Source: Muribaculum gordoncarteri (lineage in GTDB: Bacteria; Bacteroidota; Bacteroidia; Bacteroidales; Muribaculaceae). Taken from it: a stretch of DNA of 64,000 nucleotides. This document shows positions 3,289 to 63,555 of the stretch, piece by piece. The DNA is taken from NCBI RefSeq assembly GCF_004803695.1, contig NZ_CP039393.1, positions 2,108,001-2,172,000 of the forward strand, written 5' to 3'. The translations under genes were made by a program, and so were the position numbers. The notes under the pieces were generated by a model. That model saw only the letters and a program-made list of their open reading frames with translations. It ran no database searches and was not told where the DNA came from. Every line of letters begins with the position of its first letter. Positions within the stretch are counted from its first letter, which is position 1.

Positions 3289-3291
3289 CGG

Positions 3292-3937: not shown

Positions 3938-3944
3938 CATCCAT

Positions 3945-4017: not shown

Positions 4018-4026
4018 CGAATATAT

Positions 4027-4099
4027 GCAGGTATAGCTCAGTTGGTAGAGCGTCGGTCTCCAAAACCGAAAGTCGAGGGTTCAAGTCCTTCTGCCTGTG
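4027..4099 (+). tRNA. tRNA-Trp(CCA)
   Basis: Acceptor GCAGGTA/TGCCTGT, canonical TAGCTCAGTTGGTAGAGC D-arm, anticodon stem TCGGT/ACCGA with loop CTCCAAA (anticodon CCA), and T-arm GAGGG-TTCAAGT-CCTTC. The discriminator G4099 is followed by an encoded CCA. Confidence 0.92.
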
Positions 4100-4150
4100 C
4101 CAATATACTACAATGCGTAGCAATCACCGATTCAAAATCACTTAATGATT

Positions 4151-4190
4151 AAGGCTTCCGTAGGACCCTAAAAGTGTTCACGGAAGCCTT
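4151..4190. terminator. Bidirectional terminator after the tRNA cluster
   Basis: An 11-bp perfect stem, AAGGCTTCCGT (4151-4161) with ACGGAAGCCTT (4180-4190), is followed by CTTTATT on the plus strand. It can end the tRNA transcript and, on the other strand, the WYL-type gene whose stop begins at 4193. Confidence 0.8.
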
Positions 4191-4192
4191 CT

Positions 4193-4606: not shown

Positions 4607-4690
4607 GGTAATTATAAAATTCAATCATATATGAAAATTTTTACGTTGTGCCATGCCGTGACAATAAGGAGCATGTGGCCATGACAGGGC

Positions 4691-4724
4691 ACAAAAAAAT
4701 CGGAAAGCTTTCAGAGCTTCCCGA
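4691..4724 (-). terminator. Terminator of small transcript B
   Basis: The stem TCGGAAAGCT (4700-4709) with AGCTTCCCGA (4715-4724) has one mismatch and is followed on the minus strand by seven T. Its arms resemble those of the terminator of transcript A. Confidence 0.75.
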
Positions 4725-4929
4725 CTATCTCCTTATCGTCTAATGCATTGTCAGACTTCAGATGCAACTGCAATATCGCCGAAACCGCCCCTCAAGCAAG
4801 CTATAAAAGCCCTTAAATCGAAAGCTATAGCAACTTACGCTGCAGCTGCTGTAGCTACGGCGGCGCCAACTTGACGATATGTTATGTTGCAACATCGGCA
4901 TTATTTGAATTTTATTTTTCAGAATTTGG
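4691..4929 (-). ncRNA. Small independent transcript B (sRNA or small-protein mRNA)
   Basis: A unit of about 240 nt with a consensus promoter at 4933-4964 and a terminator at 4691-4724. It contains a 47-codon frame from ATG 4901 to 4758 (MPMLQHNISSSWRRRSYSS, rich in Ser, Arg and Cys), whose composition looks unlike an ordinary protein. Near the start it shares TTGCAACATA with transcript A. Like A, it is an isolated minus-strand unit in front of an accessory operon. It is more likely a regulatory RNA than an mRNA, but a small protein cannot be excluded. Confidence 0.55.
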
Positions 4930-4932
4930 ATG

Positions 4933-4964
4933 CAAAGTTAACGGTTTTTCAGCGCTACGACAAA
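4933..4964 (-). promoter_or_regulatory. Promoter of small transcript B
   Basis: On the minus strand, TTTG (4964-4961), 20 nt, TAACTTTG (4940-4933). The -7 box and spacing are identical to those of transcript A. Confidence 0.8.
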
Positions 4965-4981
4965 TCCCAAGCTGAAATCAA

Positions 4982-5048
4982 TGACAAAATTATAATCAAG
5001 CTACGCATCCTATCTGCGTAGCCTATTGAAAGTTTCAATATTTTGTCA
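4982..5048. promoter_or_regulatory. Nested palindromes upstream of the DUF6236 gene
   Basis: Three perfect inverted repeats are nested: outer TGACAAAAT (4982-4990) with ATTTTGTCA (5040-5048), GCTACGCA (5000-5007) with TGCGTAGC (5015-5022), and ATTGAAA-G-TTTCAAT (5025-5039). They could fold as a branched RNA or serve as binding sites. The rest of 5049-5230 holds one more inverted pair (AAACGAAT 5159-5166, ATTCGTTT 5181-5188) and no gene. Confidence 0.55.
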
Positions 5049-5230
5049 CAATTCCTCCAAGACAATCCTGATGGAAATTGTTCCATCAATCCTCAAAATT
5101 TATAGCCCAAAGAAATTTCTTTATGACAGAAAGCAACAACATGAAGCGGTTTTATGTTAAACGAATAGACAAGTTCATATATTCGTTTTCTACGAATGAT
5201 TCTGAGCACAACTAATAATCAAAACAAGAA

Positions 5231-6250
5231 ATGAATCTATTATATTACCCGTATATAAATCTACCTGATACAGAATGGACTATCCGCACCTTGCTCTATC
5301 ACGACAATGTAAGCGCTATTGTGCCGGCTCAATACTTTCATGAACCTGAGCGATATGAACCCTTCATGAGAGAGGCGGTTCAAAATGAGCTGATTACTCC
5401 GGTTAACCCCATGAATGTTCTTGATAATCCGTGGGAGGTTTCAAGAATGTTTGACGAGTACCTGAATCAGAACAAAAGCATATTGAAACGGCGAAGATTA
5501 CCAATTCAAAGAAACGGAATCAGTCACATCCATGCGGGAAAATACTCATTCAGAGAAAATGGGATTCACATGCACGACGACAAACTTAACGATGGCGTTT
5601 TCTATAACCTAATTCAGATGGGATTAGCTGAACAGATCGATGATTATTGGTATGGTGTGGAGCCTAAAACCGCCTATGAACTTATGACTTTTCTTACTTC
5701 AGTAGTTGCCTGCAAAATAGATTATCAACCGGTCACAGATCGGATAACCGGCAAATGTTTTTCTACAATATATGCACAAAACAAAGATGTTGAATTACGG
5801 ACAAGACAATACAAAAGAGATTTAATACTCAAAGAAATGATACCATATCCTAAACAAATAGATTTGACACATCTTAGACGATTTAAGGACAGGCATCATG
5901 ATTTACTTACCGCATTCAGCAATAAGGTAGAGCAAATAGCTCTAAATCCGACAATTACCCCTGAATCACCACTATTCACAATGGTACTTGACGAAATGAA
6001 GGCTGCTAAAGAAGAGCTATCAGCACGAATGAACGAAAGCCATCTTGGGGACATCGTTTTTGGCACAATATGCGGAACCATAGCAGCAGGATTGGGATTC
6101 TTGGCCTCACCCGTATTAGGTGCGATTCCGGGACTGTTAAATGCCATATACTCAGCATGTCGAATTGAGCGCCCGGAAAGCACAATCGATCAAACGGGAT
6201 TAAAATATCTGGCCTTAGTTGACAAAAGATTAAGGCGGAAATCTCGATAA
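5231..6250 (+). CDS. DUF6236 family protein
   Basis: A 339-aa protein with the DUF6236 signature at the N-terminus (LYYPYINLPDTEWTIRTLLY and VSAIVPAQYF). The central part is charged and helical. Near residues 273-305 there is a hydrophobic, glycine- and alanine-rich segment (GTICGTIAAGLGFLASP) that could insert into membrane, followed by a basic C-terminus. The function of the family is unknown to me. The gene stands alone between small transcript B and the second HipA operon in a region of accessory genes. No clear promoter is seen; palindromes upstream (4982-5048 and 5159-5188) suggest regulation. Confidence 0.7.
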   Translation: MNLLYYPYINLPDTEWTIRTLLYHDNVSAIVPAQYFHEPERYEPFMREAVQNELITPVNPMNVLDNPWEVSRMFDEYLNQNKSILKRRRLPIQRNGISHIHAGKYSFRENGIHMHDDKLNDGVFYNLIQMGLAEQIDDYWYGVEPKTAYELMTFLTSVVACKIDYQPVTDRITGKCFSTIYAQNKDVELRTRQYKRDLILKEMIPYPKQIDLTHLRRFKDRHHDLLTAFSNKVEQIALNPTITPESPLFTMVLDEMKAAKEELSARMNESHLGDIVFGTICGTIAAGLGFLASPVLGAIPGLLNAIYSACRIERPESTIDQTGLKYLALVDKRLRRKSR

Positions 6251-6321
6251 TCCCATCCGCCATCAATTTTAGCCCCCGTTCCCTACTCGATTCCGGGTCA
6301 AACGGAAATGTTCGCAATTCT

Positions 6322-6353
6322 ATTGCTCATCTCAGAATTATTGACTACATTTG
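6322..6353 (+). promoter_or_regulatory. Promoter of the two-gene HipB/HipA operon
   Basis: ATTG (6322-6325), 20 nt, TACATTTG (6346-6353). The last four bases of the -7 box form the left edge of the operator 6350-6384. Confidence 0.65.
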
Positions 6354-6384
6354 TATCATAATATTAGCAGTATTATGATACAAA
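6350..6384. promoter_or_regulatory. Perfect 14-bp inverted-repeat operator over the start codon
   Basis: TTTGTATCATAATA (6350-6363), 7 nt, TATTATGATACAAA (6371-6384). It covers the -7 element, the transcription start and the ATG at 6375, so a bound repressor would block initiation directly. The expected ligand is the HTH protein encoded immediately downstream. Confidence 0.75.
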
Positions 6385-6734
6385 ATATTAATAATAACAA
6401 TATATTATCTGTATTAAAAAGTTTTACTCTTGATAATTCAGATGATATAGCCAGAGAAGTTGCTGAAAATTTCCGTAAAAGGCGCGTTGAAAAAAACATT
6501 ACACGACAACACATTTCCGAGCTGTCGGGAGTGCCTTTGTCTACCGTCGCCCGATTTGAGCAAAAGGGGCTTATTGCCTTTGAATCGCTTGTAAAGTTGG
6601 CGATGGCTTTGGGATATGCTTCAGATGTCCGCAATCTATTCGGCAAATCCAAATTTGACACAATGGAAGAGCTTGACATGATTCGCAGCAAAAGTGGCAA
6701 CAAAAGGGCATACGTTAAAAATAAGAAGAAATGA
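6375..6734 (+). CDS. hipB: HipB-like XRE-family repressor/antitoxin
   Basis: A 119-aa protein with a central XRE helix-turn-helix (RQHISELSGVPLSTVARFEQ), an Asn-rich N-terminus and a basic C-terminus (RAYVKNKKK). The start at 6375 is chosen because the longer frame begins with TTG at 6351 inside the -7 box. Its ATG lies within the right arm of a perfect palindrome, consistent with tight autorepression. Its last bases overlap the hipA start (ATGA, 6731-6734). It is longer than the HTH protein of the first system (66 aa) and not closely similar, so the two operons are not recent duplicates. Antitoxin role inferred from gene order. Confidence 0.8.
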   Translation: MIQNINNNNILSVLKSFTLDNSDDIAREVAENFRKRRVEKNITRQHISELSGVPLSTVARFEQKGLIAFESLVKLAMALGYASDVRNLFGKSKFDTMEELDMIRSKSGNKRAYVKNKKK

Positions 6735-7858
6735 GAAAAACCGAAAAGCTTAAAGTAATGTTTCGCGGACAGACGGTGGGCACATTGTCGCTTACGCCCG
6801 ACAATCGTCTGAATGTCTTCGAGTACGACAAATCATGGATTGCCGACGGTTTTAGCATATCTCCACTTGAACTGCCGCTAAAGCCGGGTGTATTCATCGC
6901 CAAGCCCCAGCCGTTTTACGGTAATTTCGGCATTTTTGAGGATAGCCTTCCCGACGGATACGGCCGCTATCTTCTTCACAAGGCATTGCTGCGAAAAGGG
7001 GTCAACGATTCCGATTTGTCATCATTGGACCGGCTCGCAATTGTAGGCGACAACGGCATGGGCGCACTCACCTATTCACCTTCAATTAATATTGAACCTA
7101 AGGAACCTATAACCGATTTCGACCGACTTCAACAAACGGCCCTCGAAGTGCTCAAAGAGCAACAGGATAGCGATGCCGGACTGTTGCTCTACAATAGCGG
7201 AAACAGCGGTGGCGCTCGCCCGAAAGCGGTATTTTCGGATTCCGAAGGGCACTGGATTATCAAATTCAGACATACATACGACCCGACAGATAAAGGGCTT
7301 CAAGAGTATCGATATAACAAAATCGCTCAAAAATGCGGAATTATAGTACCTGATTTCCGCCTCGTTAACGGACGATATTTCGCATCTCGACGGTTCGACA
7401 TCGACAGTGAAGGAAATCGCCTTCACACTGCAACAGCAGGAGGACTGTTGTGCATATCACTTCGTGAACCGTTTATGGATTACTCAAATCTTCTTGCACT
7501 TACCGGCTACCTGACTCAAAACCGTGAAGATGTGGAGCAAATGTATCGCCGTATGCTGTTCAATTATCTCACCGACAATAAAGACGATCATTGCAAGAAT
7601 TTCAGTTTTTATGTGGCCAAGGATTCCGATACAAAAGCATGGCAATGGCGGCTTGCACCGGCCTACGACCTCACGCTATGCACCGAAGGATATAACGGCG
7701 AGCACGCAACCTCAGTCAACGGCACAGGCCAGCCACGATTGTCAGATTTTATCGCAGTTGGCACAAAAATCAAGCTACCGGAGCCCCGATGCCGTGAAAT
7801 TATAGATGAAGTTCATTCCTGCTGTCGCGACTTAATTCGCTACAACATACCAACATAG
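6731..7858 (+). CDS. hipA: HipA-family serine/threonine kinase toxin
   Basis: A 375-aa single-chain HipA-type kinase: N-terminal subdomain (1-115, including FGIFEDSLPDGYGR), glycine-rich loop SGGARPKA (159-166), ATP lysine in WIIKF (Lys178), catalytic NKDDHCKN (283-290, Asp285) and metal-binding Asp312 in APAYDL. Unlike the first system in the window, the N-terminal subdomain is fused here, so this is an ordinary two-gene HipBA-type module. It is translationally coupled to the HTH gene. It is shorter than E. coli HipA (440 aa), and the substrate cannot be predicted. All catalytic positions appear intact. Confidence 0.85.
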   Translation: MRKTEKLKVMFRGQTVGTLSLTPDNRLNVFEYDKSWIADGFSISPLELPLKPGVFIAKPQPFYGNFGIFEDSLPDGYGRYLLHKALLRKGVNDSDLSSLDRLAIVGDNGMGALTYSPSINIEPKEPITDFDRLQQTALEVLKEQQDSDAGLLLYNSGNSGGARPKAVFSDSEGHWIIKFRHTYDPTDKGLQEYRYNKIAQKCGIIVPDFRLVNGRYFASRRFDIDSEGNRLHTATAGGLLCISLREPFMDYSNLLALTGYLTQNREDVEQMYRRMLFNYLTDNKDDHCKNFSFYVAKDSDTKAWQWRLAPAYDLTLCTEGYNGEHATSVNGTGQPRLSDFIAVGTKIKLPEPRCREIIDEVHSCCRDLIRYNIPT

Positions 7859-7910
7859 CGAAATAGCCCATCCGGCACATCAATTGAATCCAATTTTAAT
7901 TAATACTATC

Positions 7911-8819
7911 ATGATACTTGATTCAGACACAAATGTCATCTATTTTTCAGAACTCGTACTTAATATACTCGGTGGTTTAGGAATAGTAACCCGAATTCGT
8001 GAAAATAACATTTCTGTTAAATTCATTCCTGCCACAGTAGATATATGGGCTCGCGATTATATGCCGATACAGATTGACGATCAAAAGTTTATCGGTTATG
8101 AATATTGCCCCGATTACCTCTACCCCAATTTTTCCTCAAGGATAACCAATCAAGCAAGAGTCTGTGACAAAATGGGATTTGATACTTTTGCAAGCGGCCT
8201 GATTATTGACGGAGGGAATGTTGTCAAGACATCAAAAGGCATTATTATGGTTGATAAAGTCTTTAATGAAAACAGTCATTTATCACGGATAGAACTTATC
8301 AACCAACTTGAAACAGCCTTTCAATCCGAAATCATATTCCTTCCATGGGATCGCAGCGAATATTATGGCCATGCCGACGGCATTGTCAGAGAAATATTCG
8401 ACGGGACTGTCCTGTTAACCAACTACCATCGTTATTCTAAGAAATATTCCTTACAATTTGAACAAATTCTTAGTAGATATTTCGATGTAAAAATACTCGA
8501 CTTTAATGTCGAGAAGCAACATAAGCATAATTGGTGCTATATCAATTTTCTTCGTATCGGCAATACAATATTTCTGCCGCAACTCACACCAATGCGCCCT
8601 TCTATAAATAGAGAATGCACCGGTGATGATGTTACCGCCGACAAAACCGAATATATACCTTCAGAAAAAATCGTCGAAGAAGATGCACAAGCCGTAGAAC
8701 AATTCCGATATTATATGCCTGATTGTCAGATAATCCCCATATCATGTCCTCAGATTGTCAAAGAAGGCGGCGCACTAAACTGTATTTCATGGAATATAAA
8801 AGCTCCTAAACTGCCTTAA
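7911..8819 (+). CDS. Agmatine deiminase / peptidyl-arginine deiminase family protein
   Basis: A 302-aa guanidino-group-modifying enzyme of the agmatine/Porphyromonas-type arginine deiminase family. Family landmarks are WARDYMP (residues 45-51), DGGN (100-103), HADG (154-157) with the catalytic His, and a C-terminal GGALNCISWN with the catalytic Cys291. It would hydrolyse agmatine or a related guanidino compound to a citrulline-like product and ammonia. The ATG at 7911 is preferred over a TTG at 7884. It lies 52 nt after hipA in the same direction and converges with the next gene, overlapping it by 14 nt. No polyamine-pathway partner is adjacent, so the substrate is uncertain. Confidence 0.75.
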   Translation: MILDSDTNVIYFSELVLNILGGLGIVTRIRENNISVKFIPATVDIWARDYMPIQIDDQKFIGYEYCPDYLYPNFSSRITNQARVCDKMGFDTFASGLIIDGGNVVKTSKGIIMVDKVFNENSHLSRIELINQLETAFQSEIIFLPWDRSEYYGHADGIVREIFDGTVLLTNYHRYSKKYSLQFEQILSRYFDVKILDFNVEKQHKHNWCYINFLRIGNTIFLPQLTPMRPSINRECTGDDVTADKTEYIPSEKIVEEDAQAVEQFRYYMPDCQIIPISCPQIVKEGGALNCISWNIKAPKLP

Positions 8820-10433: not shown

Positions 10434-11357
10434 ATGACACTACAGCAGCTAAAATACATCATCGCCATCGACCGCCATCGCAGCTTTGCGAAAGCAGCCG
10501 CCGAACTCGACATCACACAACCCACATTGAGTGCCCTGCTCCTAAAACTGGAAGAGGAGCTCGGTGTAAAAATATTCGAGCGAAGCAATCGAAGCGTTGT
10601 CCCCACCTCCATTGGCCGGATTATACTTCTTCAGGCACAGACAGCAATAAGCGAAGCCGACCGAATCGAAGAAATTGTCGCCGAACAAAAAGGAGCGGTT
10701 TCCGGGCCGTTATCAATCGGCATAGGGCCAACGATAGCACCTTACCTAATGCCTTGGTTCATTAAGAAATATACCGATGCCCATTCCGAAGTCAAACTCT
10801 CCATAAACGAGATGAAAGGTGATGCCATAATTGAGGCTCTCCGCTTTGGCAATATTGACATAGGAATAGCCATGAGCGGCCACGCCGTGACAGGAGTCAA
10901 GGAAATACCGCTATATACCGAGTCGTTCTTCGTATATATGGCCAAAGACTGCCTCATGAAGCAGCCGGCATTCAATCCGGCCGATCTCGTTCACGAAAAG
11001 ATGTGGATCATGAAGGAATCACAATGTATGCGCGAAAGCACGTTCAGCTTCTGCAAGGCACGCAGTATCGGACGACACATCTATGAAGCCGGAAGCATCG
11101 AAACCCTTATACGCATCGTCGACATCAACGGCGGTTTTACTATAATCCCGGAAATGCACCTCCCCTTTCTGTCGGAATCGCAAAGGGAGAATGTGCGACC
11201 TATCGAAGGCCGATTTGTTTCAAAGCGAAGTATTTCGATATACCTTAGAGCTGATTTCATTCGCCTGAACATGCTGAAAAGCGTCATTCACGCATTACAG
11301 TCGATCATCCCCAAAAAGATGATCAGTCCTGAATTGTCGCAACTCTCCACCACATAA
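10434..11357 (+). CDS. oxyR: OxyR-type LysR-family peroxide sensor/regulator
   Basis: A 307-aa LysR-family regulator with an N-terminal winged HTH (SFAKAAAELDITQPTLSALL) and a periplasmic-binding-protein-like effector domain. Two cysteines, Cys198 and Cys207 in SQCMRESTFSFCKA, have the C-X8-C spacing of the OxyR disulfide switch (Cys199/Cys208 in E. coli), so peroxide sensing is likely. The start at 10434 (MTLQQLKYIIAID) is typical of the family; the longer frame begins within the promoter. A TATCTTTG box at 10409-10416 is a likely -7 element. Divergent from the iron-sulfur operon, which it may control. Confidence 0.85.
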   Translation: MTLQQLKYIIAIDRHRSFAKAAAELDITQPTLSALLLKLEEELGVKIFERSNRSVVPTSIGRIILLQAQTAISEADRIEEIVAEQKGAVSGPLSIGIGPTIAPYLMPWFIKKYTDAHSEVKLSINEMKGDAIIEALRFGNIDIGIAMSGHAVTGVKEIPLYTESFFVYMAKDCLMKQPAFNPADLVHEKMWIMKESQCMRESTFSFCKARSIGRHIYEAGSIETLIRIVDINGGFTIIPEMHLPFLSESQRENVRPIEGRFVSKRSISIYLRADFIRLNMLKSVIHALQSIIPKKMISPELSQLSTT

Positions 11358-11454
11358 TCCGCTATATATCAATAGTTCAAATTCTCAAAAAGCATCTACA
11401 TCATCCAATTTGCAACATAATCTCGAGCTAAAAAATAAGCCGACAAAAAATAAA

Positions 11455-11486
11455 TTTGCTCAATAATTAAGTTTTTGGCATCTTTG
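11455..11486 (+). promoter_or_regulatory. Promoter of a short unit interrupted by the IS element
   Basis: TTTG (11455-11458), 20 nt, CATCTTTG (11479-11486; first base deviates from consensus). TTTTGGCATCTTTGCATTG here matches the -7 region of the oxyR promoter except for one missing T. It is followed by an inverted repeat (11497-11505 with 11524-11532) and then the IS. Confidence 0.5.
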
Positions 11487-11541
11487 CATTGTGGATTTGT
11501 ATTAGACGATAAAATTTCATTTCCTAATACAACCCTAAAAT

Positions 11542-13240
11542 AGGGATACTCAGTTAATTGCCAACTAATTGTTTGCCAAAGTCGTAGATATTTTGTAACT
11601 TTACAATGAACCCCCGATGGACCCATCACGGGCTTATTCGGGGGTAATTCTTAAAATAATTGTACGTGAAGTTACGAAAAATATCCGAGATTACGGCCAC
11701 GTTGCCGTTTACCGAGTTCGATTTCATGCAAAAATATCGCGAGAGTTTTGCCGTAAGCGAGCTCGGGCGCATCCATGCGCAATTGCCATTGAAAGAACTG
11801 GCAGAGAAAATCCGTTCGCATTTTCCCAAAACGCATCCTCAGGGCAACACTCCGATGTTCCCGCCGGAGGGAGAGGTGGCGCTGATGTTTCTCAAGCCAT
11901 ATACCGGACAGTCGGATGACGGCCTGATCGAGATGCTCAACGGCAGTATACACATACAGATGTTCTGCGGGGTGCTCATAGATCCGGCCAACCCCATAAA
12001 GAACGGCAAGATAGTCAGTGCTATCCGTCAGCGTATAGCCGGAGCTCTTGATATCAAAGAACTACAGAAATTGCTGTATGACAAGTGGGGCGGTTTGTTA
12101 AAAGACAAGAACCTGTGCCTGACCGACGCCACCTGTTACGAGAGCCATCTGCGATTCCCGACAGATGTAAAGCTGTTGTGGGAATGCTGCGAGTGGATTC
12201 AATCACTTATAAAAAAGACCTGCAAGGCGTTGAAGGAACGGTTGCCACGCAACAAGTATCGTGATATTGACCGCGACAGACTCACCTATGCCAAGCATCG
12301 CAAGCACACCAGGGCGGCAACCGCCAAACTCCGCCGTCGATTGCTCGGCCTGCTTTCCAAACAGATAGGTCAATGGAACAGAATCTGCAAGATACACACC
12401 GTTGACATCACGCTCACCGCAGAGCAAAGCAAGCGTCTCAGTGCATTAAAAGAGGTGTATCGCCAGCAGAGCGCACTTGCTCAGAAAAAGGAGGTGAAAC
12501 ACCGTATCGTCAGCATAGACCGTCCGTACATCCGTCCTATTGTCAGAGGCAAGGAGAACAAGCGAGTGGAGTTCGGAGTCAAGGTCAACAACATCCAGAT
12601 TGACGGAATTTCATTCATCGAACACCATTCCTTCGAAGCCTTCAACGAGGGCGTGAGATTACAGGAGTGTATTGAATATCAACAGGAACTGACCGGTATC
12701 AAAGTGACCAGGGTAGGGGCAGACACCATCTATGCCAACAACGACAACCGGCGGTATTGCACCGAAAACGGCATGACGACCTGTTTTGTCCGCAAAGGCC
12801 CGAAGCCCAAGGATGAAGATGCTGACATAAGCACAGCCCGACGAATAATCGGGACACTGCGCTCTACCGCCATGGAGGGCAGTTTCGGTAATCAGAAACA
12901 ACACTACAGCGTTGGCCGGATAGCGGCACGCAACTCCCGCAGCGAAACCCTGCTGCTCTTTTTCGGCATCCACATGGCAAACGCCGCAACACTTGCCGCC
13001 CGACAACTCGCCATCGAAGAAAAAGAGAAGCAGTTACAAAAACAGCGAGCGTGAAAAATCATACTGTCATCTCATCTCCGAAGCACATCGGAGGCGAATC
13101 AGTGTATCCCTATTTGTCCGAAATGTCATATTTTATCGCCGAGAATTGAAAATTTGCCCTCATAATCAAAACAGCACCGCCATAGGGCGACCACGCTCCA
13201 TTTTCAGCTTGATAAATCAAGCCATTAACTGAATATCCCT
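11542..13240 (+). mobile_element. IS5-like insertion sequence, complete, 1,699 bp
   Basis: Imperfect terminal inverted repeats: left AGGGATACTCAGTTAATTGC; right, read inward, AGGGATATTCAGTTAATGGC (18 of 20). A 5-bp target duplication AAAAT flanks it (11537-11541 and 13241-13245). One transposase gene fills the element. Intact ends, a clean duplication and an intact frame point to a recent insertion. Confidence 0.85.
11660..13054 (+). CDS. IS5-family (InsH-like, DDE) transposase
   Basis: A 464-aa DDE transposase. The N-terminal DUF772/InsH-type domain (PEGEVALMFLKPYTGQSDDG) is followed by a catalytic core with Asp in CLTDATCYE, Asp in RVGADTIYANNDN and Glu in MEGSFGNQKQHYS, and a C-terminal Lys/Gln-rich tail. 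Length and domain order fit IS5-group transposases of Bacteroidetes. ATG at 11660 gives MYVKLRKIS; a downstream Met (MQKYRE, residue 23) is a possible alternative start. The gene lies inside matched inverted repeats and is probably functional. Confidence 0.85.
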   Translation: MYVKLRKISEITATLPFTEFDFMQKYRESFAVSELGRIHAQLPLKELAEKIRSHFPKTHPQGNTPMFPPEGEVALMFLKPYTGQSDDGLIEMLNGSIHIQMFCGVLIDPANPIKNGKIVSAIRQRIAGALDIKELQKLLYDKWGGLLKDKNLCLTDATCYESHLRFPTDVKLLWECCEWIQSLIKKTCKALKERLPRNKYRDIDRDRLTYAKHRKHTRAATAKLRRRLLGLLSKQIGQWNRICKIHTVDITLTAEQSKRLSALKEVYRQQSALAQKKEVKHRIVSIDRPYIRPIVRGKENKRVEFGVKVNNIQIDGISFIEHHSFEAFNEGVRLQECIEYQQELTGIKVTRVGADTIYANNDNRRYCTENGMTTCFVRKGPKPKDEDADISTARRIIGTLRSTAMEGSFGNQKQHYSVGRIAARNSRSETLLLFFGIHMANAATLAARQLAIEEKEKQLQKQRA

Positions 13241-45289: not shown

Positions 45290-48200
45290 TTAATCACTTA
45301 ACTCATATTCTTTAGGAATAATTTGAGTTATAGCCTCATCTATAAGACAAAGCTTTCTAACAGTCCAATTGTTAAATTCACTCGCTTCTTCAACCAACTC
45401 CTTAAATCCTTCAATTTCTTCCGGCATTCTAAAACCCATCCTTAACCCAGTAAATATCAACAGTTTGCCTAACTGGAAAAAGTCATTGAAATATTGAGAG
45501 TCAACTTTATTCATAAACATAATCACATTACCACATATTGCCCTATAATTATGCAGAAATGCATTATTAGGGCCATAATAATGGCCGACTCCAACCAGAT
45601 TTATTTTAGCTTTAGTTTTCCACTCATTTTCATTTTCAAATCCCAGCCAATCTTCAACAAAAGGCATTTCTCCATCATGATAGGATGAAAATTCATTAGC
45701 AGCCAAGAGCAACAGTGTATTTACTGATAGACTTTGTGGATTTTTGATATCCATAAGCTTAACATTTTCACAATATGGCATTATATATTTATATTGTTCA
45801 GGGAATGAAATATTAAATGCCATTTCAGAAAAATATTTTATATAAATATCCGAAAAATACAAAAATGGGTATAAATTTATAACTGCGAAAAAATGCTCGT
45901 AGTCTTTATTAGCTACATGATTTAAAGCGGCTGATATAAATAGGAATTTAGCAATACTGTGTTTTATATCTAACACATCTTCAGGTGTTAATTGTCGGAT
46001 ATCTCGTCTTAACATCGACAATTGTTCAATGGTTTCTCTTACACTGCGATTATAATTCTCTCTAATCCATTCCGCGTCTTTTTCATTCAAGCTCATACCT
46101 TCCGATAACATAACAGCAGCTTTTAAAATTTCAAAATAAAGCTTTGCTTCACGAATTTTTATGCTATCTCCTATTTGTTCGGAATTTGCAGTTTTATACA
46201 AAATCTCCAGTATTTGAGATGAGTATTTATATAACAGCTTTCCTTCATGTATTAGCATCCACACCTCAATAGAAGGATTGATATCATTCCCTTTCCATTG
46301 CTTTGATAATATTAACTCTTCTAAGTCATTTACTAAAACAGAGTTTCCCCACTCAGCAAAACCATAATCAACAATTAAATTGCCTGTCTTAGAATCCCTA
46401 ATGCCAATTTTATTTTCGCTATTTTTTGCCATTATAGGTTGCCATGGATTGCGTAGATTCTTTATACTATCATCAGCATAGTTTAATATCAATTGATCCT
46501 CAGCAACAAGCATAGGCTTATATCCAAGTTGCAAAACTACCAATATGGCCAATATTTCTCCATTTATAACTAAAGGCCATTGAAATTTCCGATATTTCTC
46601 TTTACCTTTCTTAATCCATAATAATTTATATAATGCAATTATTGCCACAATCAAAGCGGTAAACCTTATTGCGACATCCAATTTGGGATTTGGGTAAATA
46701 AACCAAGCATCTAACGCCAATACCAATAGTACACCTAAATATACACAATACGGTTTTGTGAATTTAGGCTTAATATAGACAGTAAGTAATGCGATCGGGA
46801 TTAAAAACAGTCCCCATGCCGAGCTCTCCGATTTAAGATAACCATTAAAACCTTCAACTGGAAATATACAATAGAAAAACACTATTGTCAGCATTATCGT
46901 CAAACATAACATAGGAACACTCAGATTCAAAGCTTCATTGCGTTTACGAGATCCTATTAAGCCGTAAACAAGAGCACCCAATAGCACATAGTAACACACA
47001 AAAGCCATCCAATTTCCGGTATCCATCACTATGTGATATGCCTTATAAAAGCTTTCTGCAGATAGAACAATCGAACCAAATGCCAACAACAGCGTCAATC
47101 CACAATAGATAAATGTTTTCTTCCATCCCGAAAAAGCGTTATTCACAGCCATTGAACCGCAAAAGACCGTCAAGATTATTGACGACAGATTGGCAAATGA
47201 TTTCAAGGCTTCAATACCGCCATTATATATACCATTGAATATCATTGCCCCCACATCATGCGTTAGATAAAGGAACGCAAATATAAGAAAAGGAATCGAC
47301 AGAATCATACTAATCATCCTCTTCATCGACATCTCGGCGATTTGCTTCTCTTTTTCAGCCGATATTCGACGATTCTCCAATTCCGCTTTTTCCTTTTCCC
47401 ACTCCTCAGTTCTTGTACGTATACGTTCGGCCACTACTTTAGCAAGCGAATCGTGCACAAGCTCGACATAGTCTTCTCCGTTTACAGGAGCACATTTGAT
47501 AAGACGCTCCTTTTCCAACGCCATGCGATAATCGGCAAAATCAGCCTTTTCAAGCTCCGATGAAGTGGTCTTTATCCTAACGCGACGGCCTCTTGAGTCC
47601 ACAAGCGCGTTCTCAATCGCCTCCTGTGTCTTCTCCGGAACGCCACACCGTTCAATAGTCCGCACATAATAATCGGCCACGAGATTTGACAGGTTCTCGC
47701 CCGACAACAAATCAACAGCTCTGTCATTTTCACTAATGGATGTCGCCACTATCGAAAGTAACATAGCAGAAACAATTGGCAGATTACGTTCAGTTTTGTC
47801 AAGTTCCTCAACCGACCGTCCTGTTATGAATGACAAAATCTTTTTCTTTTCTCCATCAGGAACATTAGAAAGCAACGACATTACTTCCCAAGCCTCATCG
47901 ATTGTCAGCGGCTTAAGATTGTATCGGTTATTCTTTATCGCAGGTATGAAATATCGCTGTACTCCCCAATAATCCAGATCGCCGATGTATTCATTGCGCA
48001 TAGCCAACAACACCTTGAAGTTCTTCTGCTCCGAAATAACAGGGAACTTCTCCTTATCAGGCAACTTGGCACGTACACGGTCAACAATTCGGGCCGGGCA
48101 CGAATTCTCTTCAAGTCCGCTGAACCACCGGAAAAAGCTATCGGTCCATTCAGGATTTATCGGTCGAGTTATAACCTCTTCAAACTGGTCAAATATAATA

Positions 48201-48730
48201 ATGGGCTTTAATGGAATGCCGTAAAAATCAAATGAATAATTACGCAACAGCCACCACGCGTTATTGTAAAGCTGAAGATTGCGGTCGAGCGTGTTTAACA
48301 TCTCATCATTACTTGATGCGACAACCCTAAGCGGCAAATCCTTGTGATCCGATGAATAATCTATAAGTGCTTTTATACTTGTAAGTTTTTCGCCTTTAAC
48401 CTTGTCATCTTTAAGTTTCTGCTTATTATATGGATTGATCGCCTCCGCGATTGAATCGCACAACAATTTATTAAAGTCGGGCGACTTACTTTCAAATAAT
48501 TTATCGGTAATAACTATAGGCACAGGGATGAATCCTGCGCTTTTTAGCTTGGGCAACAATCCCGCACTTATCAACGAGCTTTTTCCCTCACCCGATTCAG
48601 AATGAAGCACCACAATGTCATTGCGCTTCAACATTGACAATATATCGTCGATAGCTTGAGAGCGACCCTTGAAAATAGCCGCATCTTTTTCAGTATAGGA
48701 AGCCAATCCTATGAATGATGTATTTTTCAT
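45290..48730 (-). CDS. nSTAND1-type NTPase with multi-TM domain (conflict system)
   Basis: A 1146-aa protein. Residues 1-435 are an nSTAND1 NTPase: start FIGLASYTEKDAAIFKGRSQ, Walker A SESGEGKSS (44-52, Ser in place of the usual first Gly, Lys50 kept), Walker B PIIIFDQFEE (176-185), a sensor-like LLAMRNEYIGDL (241-252) and a winged-helix-like VELVHDSLAKVVAERI (422-437). A short coiled coil (440-470) leads to about nine transmembrane helices (472-740). The C-terminal 400 residues are soluble, helical and unrecognised. It follows the SIR2-like/TIR gene by 5 nt. STAND NTPases sense phage or stress ligands and oligomerize to activate effectors; here the membrane part could be a second effector. 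Role inferred. Confidence 0.8.
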   Translation of the reverse strand: MKNTSFIGLASYTEKDAAIFKGRSQAIDDILSMLKRNDIVVLHSESGEGKSSLISAGLLPKLKSAGFIPVPIVITDKLFESKSPDFNKLLCDSIAEAINPYNKQKLKDDKVKGEKLTSIKALIDYSSDHKDLPLRVVASSNDEMLNTLDRNLQLYNNAWWLLRNYSFDFYGIPLKPIIIFDQFEEVITRPINPEWTDSFFRWFSGLEENSCPARIVDRVRAKLPDKEKFPVISEQKNFKVLLAMRNEYIGDLDYWGVQRYFIPAIKNNRYNLKPLTIDEAWEVMSLLSNVPDGEKKKILSFITGRSVEELDKTERNLPIVSAMLLSIVATSISENDRAVDLLSGENLSNLVADYYVRTIERCGVPEKTQEAIENALVDSRGRRVRIKTTSSELEKADFADYRMALEKERLIKCAPVNGEDYVELVHDSLAKVVAERIRTRTEEWEKEKAELENRRISAEKEKQIAEMSMKRMISMILSIPFLIFAFLYLTHDVGAMIFNGIYNGGIEALKSFANLSSIILTVFCGSMAVNNAFSGWKKTFIYCGLTLLLAFGSIVLSAESFYKAYHIVMDTGNWMAFVCYYVLLGALVYGLIGSRKRNEALNLSVPMLCLTIMLTIVFFYCIFPVEGFNGYLKSESSAWGLFLIPIALLTVYIKPKFTKPYCVYLGVLLVLALDAWFIYPNPKLDVAIRFTALIVAIIALYKLLWIKKGKEKYRKFQWPLVINGEILAILVVLQLGYKPMLVAEDQLILNYADDSIKNLRNPWQPIMAKNSENKIGIRDSKTGNLIVDYGFAEWGNSVLVNDLEELILSKQWKGNDINPSIEVWMLIHEGKLLYKYSSQILEILYKTANSEQIGDSIKIREAKLYFEILKAAVMLSEGMSLNEKDAEWIRENYNRSVRETIEQLSMLRRDIRQLTPEDVLDIKHSIAKFLFISAALNHVANKDYEHFFAVINLYPFLYFSDIYIKYFSEMAFNISFPEQYKYIMPYCENVKLMDIKNPQSLSVNTLLLLAANEFSSYHDGEMPFVEDWLGFENENEWKTKAKINLVGVGHYYGPNNAFLHNYRAICGNVIMFMNKVDSQYFNDFFQLGKLLIFTGLRMGFRMPEEIEGFKELVEEASEFNNWTVRKLCLIDEAITQIIPKEYELSD

Positions 48731-48735
48731 AGCAA

Positions 48736-50076
48736 TTATTTACAAATTTCAATATCGTTATCACTAAAATCGGGATTTAACACCTTCATGTTTATATGGT
48801 AGAAAACCGCGCTTATATCCGGGAAGTTCTTTGCCATCTCTTCGATTAATTTTGTATCCAAAGGACTGCCATTTTTCCAGACCCTGCCGTCAATTACCAA
48901 CGGGAGGGAAAATACAGCGTCTTCAGGCAACGATTTAATTCTTTTAGCAGCCTCTATGACCTCGACTTTTACATGAGAATCCTCAAAAACCTTGCTCCAA
49001 AAATTCTCGGTAACCACAGGGATGTATAACTTGGACTTATAAATCGCCTTTATGTAGCGATTCACATAGTTTTCGCCATATTTTATCGCCTCCTTGTCGA
49101 AAAACACATTATTCAATTTGCGGCTGAGTACGTTGTATATCCTCTCCGCGATGTCATAGTCCTCGCCTGCGTATGAAATGAAAGCGTCATAACTTTCGCA
49201 ATCAGCCTTCGATTCAGTGCTAATCATTTTGTCACGATCCTTAATTCGAGAGGTTATCTCAGCCAAAATTTCATCAACAGCCTGATCGGTATCAAAATGA
49301 TAACATTGCAGGAAATCGAAGAATCCCACATTTGAATCAGTGTGGCTTAACCAATACTTCTGCACTTCACCTGCTTGATTCTGAAAGGGGAACCACAAAA
49401 AGCGAAAAATCCAGTCGGGCAAATGACTTCCCAAGACCATAAGTCGCCCCGGCTTTTCAGCAAGATAGTTATAAAGATTGTTACATGAATAATCGCCACC
49501 TTGTATATTGTGCAGGAACTCAAGCAACGAATCCTCGTCACACACCCACTTCCAGCCATCGGCCGCTTTGCCGAATATATGGTAAACCGTATTTCCGAGC
49601 GACGAAATGTCATCCTTATTACGCCCCTGGCTCACACTCGCCGGACTATAATAAAACGAATTGTAGTTTACTCCACGGACACTTAATGCATTCTCTATAA
49701 GCGAGAACGGCGATGTGGTGATTATCAATCGCGGTTTCATTGCAGCAAGAAAATCGAGAACCGATTCCCTTAACCGCAATCTGCCGTTATCGCGTACCTC
49801 ATCCACTATTTCCCGAAATTCATCTTTAAACCTAACAGCATCCATCGAGGCTTTGGCTCGCGTAAATATATAATAAATTTCAGCTGAAGATTCGCATTTT
49901 ACATTACGTAATTCGGGAATCTCCTCACACAACTGTTGCACGACATAGGACAACAGCGTGACATCTCCGTCAGGAGTTTCAACTATAAAAGCATCATCCC
50001 CGATTAAAGGGACAATTGAATTACTATTGGTTACAACCGACTTTATGTTACGCTCCTGAGCTCGAGAAAATGGCAT
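48736..50076 (-). CDS. Degenerate SIR2-like domain fused to TIR domain
   Basis: A 446-aa soluble protein. Residues 1-280 resemble SIR2-like defence domains (PRLIITTSPFSLIENAL, and NTVYHIFGKAADGW where xKLHG is expected), but the glycine-rich NAD motif and the His before Gly are missing, so this half is probably not an active NADase. Residues 296-430 are a TIR domain: YDAFISYAGEDYDIAERIY, VFFDKEAIKYGENY, SKLYIPVVTENFWSK and VKVEVIEAAK, where Glu372 is the best candidate catalytic residue. TIR domains in conflict systems consume NAD+ or make cyclic ADP-ribose signals. First gene of a two-gene operon with the STAND membrane NTPase and with its own regulated promoter. Confidence 0.8.
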   Translation of the reverse strand: MPFSRAQERNIKSVVTNSNSIVPLIGDDAFIVETPDGDVTLLSYVVQQLCEEIPELRNVKCESSAEIYYIFTRAKASMDAVRFKDEFREIVDEVRDNGRLRLRESVLDFLAAMKPRLIITTSPFSLIENALSVRGVNYNSFYYSPASVSQGRNKDDISSLGNTVYHIFGKAADGWKWVCDEDSLLEFLHNIQGGDYSCNNLYNYLAEKPGRLMVLGSHLPDWIFRFLWFPFQNQAGEVQKYWLSHTDSNVGFFDFLQCYHFDTDQAVDEILAEITSRIKDRDKMISTESKADCESYDAFISYAGEDYDIAERIYNVLSRKLNNVFFDKEAIKYGENYVNRYIKAIYKSKLYIPVVTENFWSKVFEDSHVKVEVIEAAKRIKSLPEDAVFSLPLVIDGRVWKNGSPLDTKLIEEMAKNFPDISAVFYHINMKVLNPDFSDNDIEICK

Positions 50077-50087
50077 AAGGTTATATG

Positions 50088-50139
50088 ATTGGTATTTTTA
50101 CAAAAATAATAATTCTTTATTATTCTCGCAAATACCAAT
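50088..50139 (-). promoter_or_regulatory. Promoter of the TIR/STAND operon inside a 10-bp inverted repeat
   Basis: On the minus strand, TTTG (50132-50129), 20 nt, TATTTTTG (50108-50101): full consensus. Perfect inverted arms ATTGGTATTT (50088-50097) and AAATACCAAT (50130-50139) cover the expected start site and the -33 element, an arrangement suited to repression by a dimer or looped tetramer. Confidence 0.75.
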
Positions 50140-59100: not shown

Positions 59101-60906
59101 TTAACCTTTTTTAATATTAGCAATAATCTGTTTGATTTTCTGACGAGTAACAATCTCGGTGTCGAGTCTGAAGCCGGCTTTGGCATGTAGGTCATCGGTA
59201 AGATCATCCCGTGTGAAGTTAGGCTTGTAGCCTTCTCCCTTGACTATGTTCATAGTCATTGACCGTAGTTTCTCAATTATAGCGGAGGATGTGTATTTAT
59301 AGTTCAGTTCCTTTTCCATTATTCTGAAGAGCAGTAGTGTGATAAAGCAGACAATGAAGTGGGCCCTTATGTGTTCCGCCGTCCAGACGAAGACGGGTCG
59401 ACCCTTGAAGTCAGTCTTGATGACCCTGAAGGCATCCTCCGACTCCCAGCGGTTATGGTTCAGTTCGATGATTTTCGTCACATTGTCAGACAGATCCGTA
59501 CATATCGCATAGAAGCCGTCATATTTTTCTTCTTCTGATATGGCGTCAAGATTCAGGGAGACGGTTCTGAATACCGCAACCTCGCCGTCTTCTGTGGCGT
59601 AGGTCTCGGAAAGGAACCTGTCAGGGCTCTTATAAGATTTGGTCAATGTCCTGTTTCCACGTGCATTGCTGTCAGCCTTGTCAATCTCGCGTTGACGCAG
59701 GAATCGGAGGTAGTCGCGGTATTTGTATGAAAATGTCACAATCAATCTTTGAGAGAACTTTGTCTTTTCATTGACAATCCAACGCTCGCGATAAAAAGTG
59801 CGGTCTCCGTAATAACGGGCAGTATCGGCATCAGTCAGGTCAAACTCCAGTTCATCCTCGTCTGCATCCCGGTACCGCTTGTCTTTTTGTACCGTGTCGG
59901 ACTTTACAAGTTTCCATCCTGTCGGTTCCAGACACCAGTCCCTGAGATTATCCTCCAGTTTCTTTATTGACTGCACCGTTATGAATGATCTTTCTGCTGT
60001 GGAGTTATATGACCGGTTGCCTTCAGAAGAGAGACCTCCGTCTGTACAGACTACAATCTTGCTGACCCCCATCTTCTCAACTATAATCTTTTCAGTTGGA
60101 ATCAAGGTAGTCTGTTCGTTGGCATTGCCGGGATTGATGCACATCGCAACCGGCATGCCGGAGTTGTCGATGAACATACCCATCTGTACGATGGGGTTCG
60201 GTCGATGTTCCTTGGAGACTCCGTACTTGCGTATACGTTCATGAACGTTCCCTTTTTTGTCTGTCACATAGTCCGGATCGGCAGATTCTCTCTCGAAAAA
60301 ATAGTTGGTGCAGTCATAGTACATGACGGTCGTATCCCGTTCGACAACCTTTGACGAATTAAGGAAAAGTCTCTTCTGGATGTATTCACCGTGTCTGTCC
60401 AGGATATCCAGACTCCTGTAGATATGCTGTTTTTCTATATCAAAAGGCTCGATATAGCTTCCGCTCCTGCGATAATTACCTAGTTTTGAAGCCGGTCTCA
60501 AAAGCCGTTCGTAGACCATCAGCTCCAGAACTTTGTTGAAATCGAAGTCGAACTTATGTTTACGTGAGATTGCCTCGCATATCCTGTCCATCCCGACCTT
60601 ATGGTACAGCCGTTTAAGAAACAGATATCCGCTCTCGCAACTCTGAGCCTCGCCTTTTTCAATAAGCTTTGTGGGCGACAGACGTGATATTATCACCTGC
60701 CGGCCCTCCTTCTCCTGTGCCGTAAGCCTGGCGATATATCCCCTGGCCCATTCAACAGGATCTCTGTCTCCGCATCTCTGACGAACTTCCTCAAGCGTTC
60801 CAAGGCGCTCATGGATTCTTGAGGTACTTTTGCCGTTCTTGTCCCTGTATGCCTTCTGTACATAAAGGATGGAAGTCTTTTTTGTCTTGGTTATTTTCAG
60901 CTTCAT
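59101..60906 (-). CDS. IS1634-family transposase, copy 1
   Basis: A 601-aa IS4-superfamily (IS1634-type) DDE transposase. Catalytic Asp in MYYDCTNYFFE, second Asp in VVCTDGGLSSEG, and Glu in HNRWESEDAFRVIKTDF within the Y-R-E-K-type signature. Length is normal and the frame intact. It differs from copy 2 by one residue seen (Gly versus Glu in EWARGYIARL, from one C/T change). A promoter with CTTG, 20 nt, TATCTTTG lies at 60975-60944 on the minus strand. Probably active. Confidence 0.9.
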   Translation of the reverse strand: MKLKITKTKKTSILYVQKAYRDKNGKSTSRIHERLGTLEEVRQRCGDRDPVEWARGYIARLTAQEKEGRQVIISRLSPTKLIEKGEAQSCESGYLFLKRLYHKVGMDRICEAISRKHKFDFDFNKVLELMVYERLLRPASKLGNYRRSGSYIEPFDIEKQHIYRSLDILDRHGEYIQKRLFLNSSKVVERDTTVMYYDCTNYFFERESADPDYVTDKKGNVHERIRKYGVSKEHRPNPIVQMGMFIDNSGMPVAMCINPGNANEQTTLIPTEKIIVEKMGVSKIVVCTDGGLSSEGNRSYNSTAERSFITVQSIKKLEDNLRDWCLEPTGWKLVKSDTVQKDKRYRDADEDELEFDLTDADTARYYGDRTFYRERWIVNEKTKFSQRLIVTFSYKYRDYLRFLRQREIDKADSNARGNRTLTKSYKSPDRFLSETYATEDGEVAVFRTVSLNLDAISEEEKYDGFYAICTDLSDNVTKIIELNHNRWESEDAFRVIKTDFKGRPVFVWTAEHIRAHFIVCFITLLLFRIMEKELNYKYTSSAIIEKLRSMTMNIVKGEGYKPNFTRDDLTDDLHAKAGFRLDTEIVTRQKIKQIIANIKKG

Positions 60907-61530: not shown

Positions 61531-63555
61531 CCCATCTTTTACAGTCCAAAAACGAGCAAACCCTTTTGTACATTGGCGTGAAGCCATGTGCAAAAGGGTC
61601 TATATATGTAGCACTGGAATGGGGTTATCTATATTTAACCTTTTTTAATATTAGCAATAATCTGTTTGATTTTCTGACGAGTAACAATCTCGGTGTCGAG
61701 TCTGAAGCCGGCTTTGGCATGTAGGTCATCGGTAAGATCATCCCGTGTGAAGTTAGGCTTGTAGCCTTCTCCCTTGACTATGTTCATAGTCATTGACCGT
61801 AGTTTCTCAATTATAGCGGAGGATGTGTATTTATAGTTCAGTTCCTTTTCCATTATTCTGAAGAGCAGTAGTGTGATAAAGCAGACAATGAAGTGGGCCC
61901 TTATGTGTTCCGCCGTCCAGACGAAGACGGGTCGACCCTTGAAGTCAGTCTTGATGACCCTGAAGGCATCCTCCGACTCCCAGCGGTTATGGTTCAGTTC
62001 GATGATTTTCGTCACATTGTCAGACAGATCCGTACATATCGCATAGAAGCCGTCATATTTTTCTTCTTCTGATATGGCGTCAAGATTCAGGGAGACGGTT
62101 CTGAATACCGCAACCTCGCCGTCTTCTGTGGCGTAGGTCTCGGAAAGGAACCTGTCAGGGCTCTTATAAGATTTGGTCAATGTCCTGTTTCCACGTGCAT
62201 TGCTGTCAGCCTTGTCAATCTCGCGTTGACGCAGGAATCGGAGGTAGTCGCGGTATTTGTATGAAAATGTCACAATCAATCTTTGAGAGAACTTTGTCTT
62301 TTCATTGACAATCCAACGCTCGCGATAAAAAGTGCGGTCTCCGTAATAACGGGCAGTATCGGCATCAGTCAGGTCAAACTCCAGTTCATCCTCGTCTGCA
62401 TCCCGGTACCGCTTGTCTTTTTGTACCGTGTCGGACTTTACAAGTTTCCATCCTGTCGGTTCCAGACACCAGTCCCTGAGATTATCCTCCAGTTTCTTTA
62501 TTGACTGCACCGTTATGAATGATCTTTCTGCTGTGGAGTTATATGACCGGTTGCCTTCAGAAGAGAGACCTCCGTCTGTACAGACTACAATCTTGCTGAC
62601 CCCCATCTTCTCAACTATAATCTTTTCAGTTGGAATCAAGGTAGTCTGTTCGTTGGCATTGCCGGGATTGATGCACATCGCAACCGGCATGCCGGAGTTG
62701 TCGATGAACATACCCATCTGTACGATGGGGTTCGGTCGATGTTCCTTGGAGACTCCGTACTTGCGTATACGTTCATGAACGTTCCCTTTTTTGTCTGTCA
62801 CATAGTCCGGATCGGCAGATTCTCTCTCGAAAAAATAGTTGGTGCAGTCATAGTACATGACGGTCGTATCCCGTTCGACAACCTTTGACGAATTAAGGAA
62901 AAGTCTCTTCTGGATGTATTCACCGTGTCTGTCCAGGATATCCAGACTCCTGTAGATATGCTGTTTTTCTATATCAAAAGGCTCGATATAGCTTCCGCTC
63001 CTGCGATAATTACCTAGTTTTGAAGCCGGTCTCAAAAGCCGTTCGTAGACCATCAGCTCCAGAACTTTGTTGAAATCGAAGTCGAACTTATGTTTACGTG
63101 AGATTGCCTCGCATATCCTGTCCATCCCGACCTTATGGTACAGCCGTTTAAGAAACAGATATCCGCTCTCGCAACTCTGAGCCTCGCCTTTTTCAATAAG
63201 CTTTGTGGGCGACAGACGTGATATTATCACCTGCCGGCCCTCCTTCTCCTGTGCCGTAAGCCTGGCGATATATTCCCTGGCCCATTCAACAGGATCTCTG
63301 TCTCCGCATCTCTGACGAACTTCCTCAAGCGTTCCAAGGCGCTCATGGATTCTTGAGGTACTTTTGCCGTTCTTGTCCCTGTATGCCTTCTGTACATAAA
63401 GGATGGAAGTCTTTTTTGTCTTGGTTATTTTCAGCTTCATATTATGCCGCCCTGCCGTTGATTGCTACACGGTGCTACAAAGATAGTAATAAAATTTGAC
63501 ACGTGCAAGCGTGCCAGCAAAAAAGATTCATGAAAATGCAACTGTCAAACTACCG
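61531..63555 (-). mobile_element. IS1634-family element, copy 2 (2,025 bp)
   Basis: Same ends and length as copy 1. Left junction at the same target position as copy 1; right junction at a different position in the permease gene (counterpart of 58725), giving a 272-bp direct repeat. The G at 63555 must belong to the IS, because the target has C there; this fixes the right end as ...AAACTACCG for both copies. Confidence 0.88.
61635..63440 (-). CDS. IS1634-family transposase, copy 2
   Basis: A 601-aa transposase nearly identical to copy 1, with Glu where copy 1 has Gly in the EWAR(E/G)YIARL stretch. Same DDE motifs, promoter and terminator. Near-identity of the copies means the second insertion or duplication is recent. 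Confidence 0.9.
   Translation of the reverse strand: MKLKITKTKKTSILYVQKAYRDKNGKSTSRIHERLGTLEEVRQRCGDRDPVEWAREYIARLTAQEKEGRQVIISRLSPTKLIEKGEAQSCESGYLFLKRLYHKVGMDRICEAISRKHKFDFDFNKVLELMVYERLLRPASKLGNYRRSGSYIEPFDIEKQHIYRSLDILDRHGEYIQKRLFLNSSKVVERDTTVMYYDCTNYFFERESADPDYVTDKKGNVHERIRKYGVSKEHRPNPIVQMGMFIDNSGMPVAMCINPGNANEQTTLIPTEKIIVEKMGVSKIVVCTDGGLSSEGNRSYNSTAERSFITVQSIKKLEDNLRDWCLEPTGWKLVKSDTVQKDKRYRDADEDELEFDLTDADTARYYGDRTFYRERWIVNEKTKFSQRLIVTFSYKYRDYLRFLRQREIDKADSNARGNRTLTKSYKSPDRFLSETYATEDGEVAVFRTVSLNLDAISEEEKYDGFYAICTDLSDNVTKIIELNHNRWESEDAFRVIKTDFKGRPVFVWTAEHIRAHFIVCFITLLLFRIMEKELNYKYTSSAIIEKLRSMTMNIVKGEGYKPNFTRDDLTDDLHAKAGFRLDTEIVTRQKIKQIIANIKKG

Follow-up and report, generated by a model that had tools for sequence, protein, structure and literature searches.

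The stretch of Muribaculum gordoncarteri DNA analysed here (64,000 nucleotides (nt) of contig NZ_CP039393.1; hereafter the window), which belongs to a 3.43 Mb genome in three contigs, carries two adjacent genes that we read, on balance, as a self-killing immune system, in which a transmembrane STAND receptor would drive a TIR NADase through a dead SIR2-like half. Gene 1 (48736..50076, minus strand, 446 amino acids (aa); identified from the list of open reading frames (ORFs), Pfam, an AlphaFold model and Foldseek) encodes a SIR2-like/TIR fusion, and gene 2 (45290..48730, minus strand, 1146 aa; ORF list and Pfam), an nSTAND1 NTPase membrane protein, lies downstream of it after a gap of 5 nt, the arrangement given in an initial annotation made from the sequence alone. 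The evidence consists of the pairing of the two genes across genomes, the conservation and loss of motifs, fold assignments, and the exchange of effector and sensor modules between relatives.

The initial annotation had named co-occurrence of homologues in other genomes as a check on the system, and this check, once run, came out in its favour: 52 of 54 distinct intact copies of gene 1 have a same-strand neighbouring nSTAND1 gene. In the family (198 genomes), gene 2 has matches in seven genomes, the window's own among them, and in 6/6 of the others gene 1 lies directly upstream; nine of the 16 genomes matched in the family search align to TIR or TIR plus linker only, and these were left out of the counts. 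The search of 295 genomes of the order led to 15 further loci with a SIR2-like part, 13 of them with gene 2 adjacent. A scan of public species genomes, for which patterns of gene 1 alone were used, yielded 32 loci, all 32 with gene 2 adjacent; five of these loci duplicate earlier ones. At the level of the phylum, a search of 345 genomes added one broken pair and six that are intact, of which one genome holds two; gene 2 of L178 runs off its contig. A plasmid search contributed one pair from another phylum, on a megaplasmid of Paraburkholderia caribensis. Duplicates (L087, L105, L107, L108, L109) and loci with a broken gene 1 (L115, L118, L180) were dropped before counting, the latter still adjoining gene 2 or its pieces. 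Gaps between the two genes range from -35 to +442 nt and exceed 50 nt in 5/45, values that are rough because ORF starts were set mechanically. Pairwise distances of gene 1 and of the STAND domain correlate closely (r 0.92 over 45 pairs; 0/2000 permutations as high). A conserved two-gene unit is therefore supported. Two explanations were rejected: chance neighbours, by the pairing itself, and a lone decayed gene, by the candidate catalytic Glu (E372) and the STAND motifs being kept across homologues and by the pair in another phylum.

The first half of gene 1 (residues 1-263, boundary approximate; 49288..50076, minus strand) is SIR2-like by model, Foldseek, profile and alignment, and is catalytically degenerate. 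The SIR2 motifs are lost, as the initial annotation had claimed for the Gly-rich and HG motifs: alignment with homologues places GDD where active SIR2 has GAG (residues 26-28; 49993..50001, minus strand), TTSPF for TNYD, and FG for HG (residues 168-169; 49570..49575, minus strand), motifs that we take, by name and catalytic role, to be those of active SIR2 enzymes. The Pfam match of the window protein to SIR2_2 lies under the cut-off (E 0.013, 16 bits vs 24.5), and the same family is over it in three of the six family homologues scanned (31.0, 25.1 and 28.3 bits). A profile of this half matches KomC (1.3e-11) and SeThsA 7uxt (2.9e-10), and FAM118B more weakly; two of its 37 rows come from TIR-less relatives, one being the intact SIR2 of L182, which aids the match. 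Among the 54 intact homologues, position 168 is F in 46, L in five and Y in three, never His (0/54), and the Asn of TNYD is kept in 4/54, so that the gene 1 family lacks the set of motifs (GAG, TNYD, HG) expected of a SIR2 NADase. The same alignment bears on another role for this half, that of a nucleotide-sensing domain which would gate the TIR and whose retained ligand would be NAD+, ADP-ribose or a TIR product. Position 28 of the Gly-rich loop is acidic in 47/54 homologues (D31/E16) and G169 is invariant (54/54), which argues for selection on this region; with the Asn largely and the His wholly gone, we nevertheless find such a role quite improbable.

The second half of gene 1 (residues 295-446, boundary approximate; 48739..49194, minus strand) is the TIR domain first described, on the evidence of Pfam (TIR_2, residues 299-396, E 1.4e-10, 42.2 bits vs a cut-off of 28), of the AlphaFold model and of TIR matches in Foldseek. 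Its candidate catalytic residue, E372 (48961..48963, minus strand), likewise proposed at the outset, is invariant in 54/54 distinct intact homologues and sits at a position that we take to be catalytic in TIR domains; with it, the domain is a predicted NADase. The AlphaFold model of gene 1, built from 31 sequences (mean predicted local distance difference test score (pLDDT) 70, predicted template modelling score (pTM) 0.54), has EfAvs5 first among its best matches in the Protein Data Bank (PDB), with DSR2 and ThsA, followed by SARM1 and plant and bacterial TIRs. TM-scores to the query are at most 0.46 and aligned ranges are absent from the output; we infer that the Avs5, DSR2 and ThsA matches cover the first half and the TIR matches the second.

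No NCBIfam model reaches its cut-off for either gene. PADLOC matches of the window gene 1 are confined to the linker and TIR region, and those of 47 gene 1 homologues are mostly to families that are TIR-bearing or TIR-like by name, plus the uncharacterised candidate PDC-S66. Window residues 272-362 match only positions 123-216 of the 282-position PDC-S66 model, which 43/47 homologues match at 1e-5 (the matched stretches were not printed). The retron reverse transcriptase (RT)-TIR model NF042941 matches gene 1 residues 255-371 (51.9 bits vs a cut-off of 600), and, since this similarity begins at residue 255, before the TIR, the linker (49213-49314, minus strand) may be common to gene 1 and retron RT-TIR. 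Elsewhere in the window's genome there are three further TIR matches, L001 (G000:C1:2096455-2096817), L002 and L003, one of them ~11 kb before the window. The pairs at L039, L075, L101, L104, L112 and L116 each have another TIR-matching ORF a few kb away at most.

Gene 2 opens with the nSTAND1 NTPase domain that the initial annotation had called (residues 6-431; 47438..48715, minus strand; Pfam E 2.7e-22, 80.4 bits vs a cut-off of 27.1). Its description of the nucleotide-binding motifs also agrees with the partner alignment: in Walker A (residues 44-52, SESGEGKSS; 48575..48601, minus strand) the first Gly is replaced by S44, a position that is G in 42/45 partners and is changed in two others too, and the Walker B region (residues 181-185, DQFEE; 48176..48190, minus strand) is intact, D181 and E185 both being found in 45/45. 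K50 and R245 are invariant in the 45 aligned partners, as are His-Asp 426-427 (45/45; 47450..47455, minus strand), which resemble what we take to be the MHD motif of STAND winged helices. With all these residues invariant, the switch looks functional. No PADLOC model matched the window gene 2, and searching solved structures by sequence for the STAND domain gave nothing useful.

Behind the switch, a charged linker (47318..47437, minus strand; from charge counts and the analogous long helix in L096), where the initial annotation had proposed a coiled coil, leads into nine predicted transmembrane (TM) helices (residues 472-736; 46523..47317, minus strand), called by hydropathy and showing positive-inside alternation. 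The initial count of about nine helices holds in part: nine are found at a threshold of at least 1.3, which was adopted after a threshold of at least 1.6 had given eight segments in the window, the sixth being lost. At the laxer threshold, Lys and Arg number 14 in inside loops vs four in outside loops, and with nine helices this places the 410-residue C-terminus (45293..46522, minus strand) outside the cytoplasm as a prediction from hydropathy. It is an orphan domain, as had been noticed, matching no Pfam family and nothing in the 246 other genomes searched from the order.

The same hydropathy script finds a hydrophobic TM segment directly after nSTAND1 in 46/47 gene 2 proteins, two of the 47 adjoining a broken gene 1. 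Counted over 15 residues on either side, Lys and Arg total 290 before this segment and 69 after it, with more before it in 46/46, and the segment is the only one in 40/46 TM-bearing proteins and in the seven pairs added later. Because this TM segment has its Lys/Arg excess on the near side, we predict an extracytoplasmic location for the variable C-terminus behind it, whether YD/RHS-like, WD40, LRR or orphan. At blastp 1e-5 the C-terminal parts fall into 13 groups without cross-matches (sizes 29, 6 and 2, and ten singletons including the window); L040 of the group of six has WD40, L038 of the group of two combines LRR_5 and WD40, and over all gene 2 members WD40 matches 8/47. These class counts are skewed to one class, since the two patterns that found the 32 public loci were built on three gene 1 proteins related to one another. 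The model of L096, a member of the group of 29 (mean pLDDT 79, pTM 0.40), has a STAND part, one helix of ~90 residues (405-495) and then an all-beta domain; Rhs proteins and teneurins head its PDB matches, followed lower down by Cdc6/ORC, Dark and Avs4, which are taken to reflect the STAND part (TM-scores to the query at most 0.19).

The initial annotation had further suggested the membrane part as a second effector. A pore acting together with the TIR would account for helices in excess of what an anchor needs, nine in the window and nine to eleven, depending on threshold, in L077. The relatives give this idea no backing: the helix is common to them in position and mostly single, with unrelated C-terminal domains behind it, so that a transmembrane sensor fits better. 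A pore effector was rejected on the single segment of most TM-bearing proteins, and a pore working beside the TIR is, of all the readings weighed here, the one we credit least.

Relatives lacking the TIR inform the role of the dead SIR2 half. With the SIR2-like half alone as query, 13 of 340 genomes matched. Two of these loci have no TIR and a SIR2 next to nSTAND1: in L182 the SIR2 (302 aa) retains all three motifs and its neighbour is an nSTAND1-TM-WD40 gene, while the SIR2 of L199 retains TTNYD and HG but has a changed Gly-rich loop. In L183 and L200, again beside nSTAND1, the SIR2-like half is degenerate and EAD11 takes the place of TIR as its fusion partner. L200 comprises three genes, EAD11-CHAT (7383-8276, minus strand), SIR2-like-EAD11 (6006-7160, minus strand) and nSTAND1-LRR (2230-6009, minus strand), and L183 has a CHAT gene after gene 2, though EAD11 was looked for in this CHAT gene and is unsupported. 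At L201 and L202 no nSTAND1 match adjoins the SIR2, and these more distant SIR2 proteins were left aside. As an observation apart, the nSTAND1 protein of L199 (4214-7141, minus strand) combines a TM helix with helical repeats, and its C-terminal stretch resembles, by eye, an outer-membrane beta-barrel; if this is real, one chain would span the envelope.

Fused to TIR or to EAD11 in different relatives, the dead SIR2 reads as an adaptor with exchangeable effectors, which agrees with the adaptor first proposed, and it probably now serves as connector between STAND and effector. Distances of the SIR2 half track those of STAND more closely than do distances of the TIR at equal columns (partial r 0.55 vs 0.16; bootstrap 95% of the difference 0.14 to 0.66), a signal that stems from 17 divergent copies (SIR2 0.72 vs TIR -0.08), as no difference is seen within the largest class. 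The simplest history suggested by these sequences is that an active SIR2 effector worked with nSTAND1, that the effector role passed to TIR or to an EAD11-recruited protease, and that SIR2 was kept as coupler; the series intact SIR2, degenerate SIR2 with EAD11 and degenerate SIR2 with TIR would then suggest how an effector enzyme becomes an adaptor.

As a self-killing system, the pair would work as follows. Gene 2 would be a transmembrane STAND receptor with its ATP-switch domain in the cytoplasm, its long helix (nine helices in the window copy) crossing the inner membrane according to the predicted topology, and its fast-changing C-terminal domain sensing an envelope event from outside. Activation would lead to nucleotide exchange and presumably oligomerisation of the switch domains; the SIR2-like half of gene 1 would contact STAND directly and cluster the TIR domains, which, if they act as in the named families, would hydrolyse NAD+ and stop growth. 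Phage as the trigger is assumed by analogy. We put forward more tentatively, as possible and short of probable, that the whole is a bacterial transmembrane pattern-recognition receptor, running from an exchangeable outside domain through the helix, the STAND switch and a dead sirtuin adaptor to exchangeable effectors (TIR, or EAD11 leading to a caspase-like CHAT protease). If true, this would join Toll-like outside sensing and TIR use with an NLR switch. To our knowledge, the bacterial STAND defences characterised so far recognise phage components within the cell; a conserved STAND system with an outside sensor would, if true, detect attack earlier.

Several observations weigh against such a system. 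All TM calls come from one Kyte-Doolittle hydropathy script, and at the stricter threshold the eight segments would put the window C-terminus inside. L104, in the largest C-terminal class, has no TM segment by hydropathy; L035 has four, so that its short tail would be inside; and in L183, outside the main family, Lys/Arg number two before vs four after the helix, which does not favour inside. The long helix of the L096 model falls below pLDDT 50 at residues 438-465 and the pTM of that model is 0.40; the gene 1 model is moderate by its pTM. The SIR2-over-TIR distance signal is absent in the 28 copies of the largest class (0.40 vs 0.45). Two intact gene 1 copies from one genus, on short contigs (L079, L080), have no gene 2. 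Finally, the defence-island signal around the pair is weak, and searches for relatives in phages gave no match. L104 and the eight window helices, together with the early phage protein made in the cell that Avs5 senses (accessible text of PMC12931631), would suit a variant of the same STAND-TIR alarm in which the helices only anchor, a phage protein in the cytoplasm acts as trigger and the C-terminal domain is no outside receptor. We consider this unlikely in view of the inward charge bias (46/46), of the nine-helix topology with its loop charges at the lax threshold, and of the main C-terminal fold, which matches Rhs and teneurin shells.

An outside-sensing immune system can also be set against a housekeeping or envelope-stress module. 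The surroundings of the pair allow for the latter: PADLOC models at 1e-15 matched 39 families among 115 neighbouring ORFs of public loci, a survey that had no control loci, and of these families 25 are listed with one protein each (LeoA, mad6, PD-T4-6, IetA and MkoA among them). No phage carriage was found in searches, a scan of viral contigs with one pattern giving 23 stretches and no relative, and the window protein searched against plasmids gave nothing useful. The patchy presence of the pair (1/14 genomes of the window genus), the rapid change of the sensor and the presence of effectors characteristic of conflict systems speak against such a module, to which we give very little credence.

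In the window, the pair is flanked by a transporter gene and glycerol-uptake genes, their functions judged by eye. The aquaporin neighbour was found in 11/14 genus genomes and a transporter match in 14/14; no clean empty site is readable, because the ten other genomes that carry both have them either far from each other or on separate contigs. Upstream of gene 1, a weak promoter-like feature (50088..50139, minus strand) consists of TTTG (50129-50132) and TATTTTTG (50101-50108), in the form TTTG-20-TAnnTTTG that we take to be a promoter consensus, inside an inverted repeat with arms at 50130-50139 and 50088-50097 (9 bp by script, the tenth by eye). The regulated promoter of the initial annotation does not stand: a repeat of at least 9 bp appears in 4.5% of Markov sequences, any such upstream repeat is found in 10/46 homologues, and no operator common to these 46 was found upstream. 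Three further observations concern other genes. Two window ORFs (59101-60906 and 61635-63440, minus strand), each of exactly 601 aa and with matching antisense ORFs, are possibly a tandem duplication; at L079 (914-2912, minus strand), three closely similar tandem genes of ~219 aa each lie beside the gene 1 without gene 2; and at L106 an FGE-sulfatase-like gene (10806-11861, plus strand) immediately follows gene 2, FGE-sulfatase-like domains being proposed sensors in other STAND systems (accessible text of PMC10907252).

None of the known systems tested (Thoeris, Avs5, retron type XII and Swarozyc) fits the pair. Avs5 also couples a SIR2 fold to a STAND NTPase with a variable C-terminal sensor, and EfAvs5 is the top Foldseek match of gene 1. 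In the accessible text of PMC12931631 it is one chain with nSTAND3 and an active SIR2 NADase, whereas the pair comprises two genes, nSTAND1, a dead SIR2, a TIR effector and a membrane helix, and membership was rejected on the two genes and on an nSTAND3 match of 17.4 bits vs 27.2. Thoeris (ThsA/ThsB) likewise has SIR2 and TIR modules, and ThsA matches by fold and profile, but here the SIR2 is dead, one protein is fused from both and the partner is a STAND; ThsA being SIR2 plus SLOG, membership is ruled out by the lack of a SLOG match at E ≤ 1 in the Pfam scan. Retron type XII RT-TIR resembles gene 1 in the stretch that matches its model, and is ruled out by the lack of a reverse transcriptase match and by the low NF042941 score. 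Swarozyc, as far as its available description goes, has a DUF4062 TIR-like domain, and no DUF4062 match was found at E ≤ 1.

Further likenesses are partial. The nSTAND1/EAD conflict systems share nSTAND1 with effector swapping and EAD adaptors, and SIR2 is listed as effector in a GreA/B-C system (PMC8195603); a SIR2-like adaptor fused to TIR is absent from the accessible text of PMC7159879 and PMC8195603, and SIR2 is unmentioned in the main text of the former. Some C-terminal sensors of STAND proteins diversified by diversity-generating retroelements are predicted to be periplasmic; they differ from the pair in their lectin fold, and SIR2 is absent from the main text (PMC10907252). The SAMD9 family resembles the pair in its variant SIR2-like domain beside a STAND-like NTPase and differs in having everything, AlbA, TPR and OB parts included, in one chain; the main text (PMC5445408) does not contain the term TIR. 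The passage from effector to adaptor would bear on human SAMD9, and a pattern-recognition receptor, if true, would suggest a function for SIR2-like domains beside STAND NTPases such as this one. No SIR2-like/TIR plus nSTAND1 system is among the open-access literature matches listed, most subscription papers and preprints being outside that coverage. The individual pieces are already in print, namely nSTAND1/EAD (PMC8195603), periplasmic STAND sensors (PMC10907252), the SAMD9 SIR2 variant (PMC5445408) and Avs5 (PMC12931631), each as far as its accessible text goes; what is new here is the helix that follows nSTAND1 in 46 of the 47 partners, with an excess of Lys and Arg before it.

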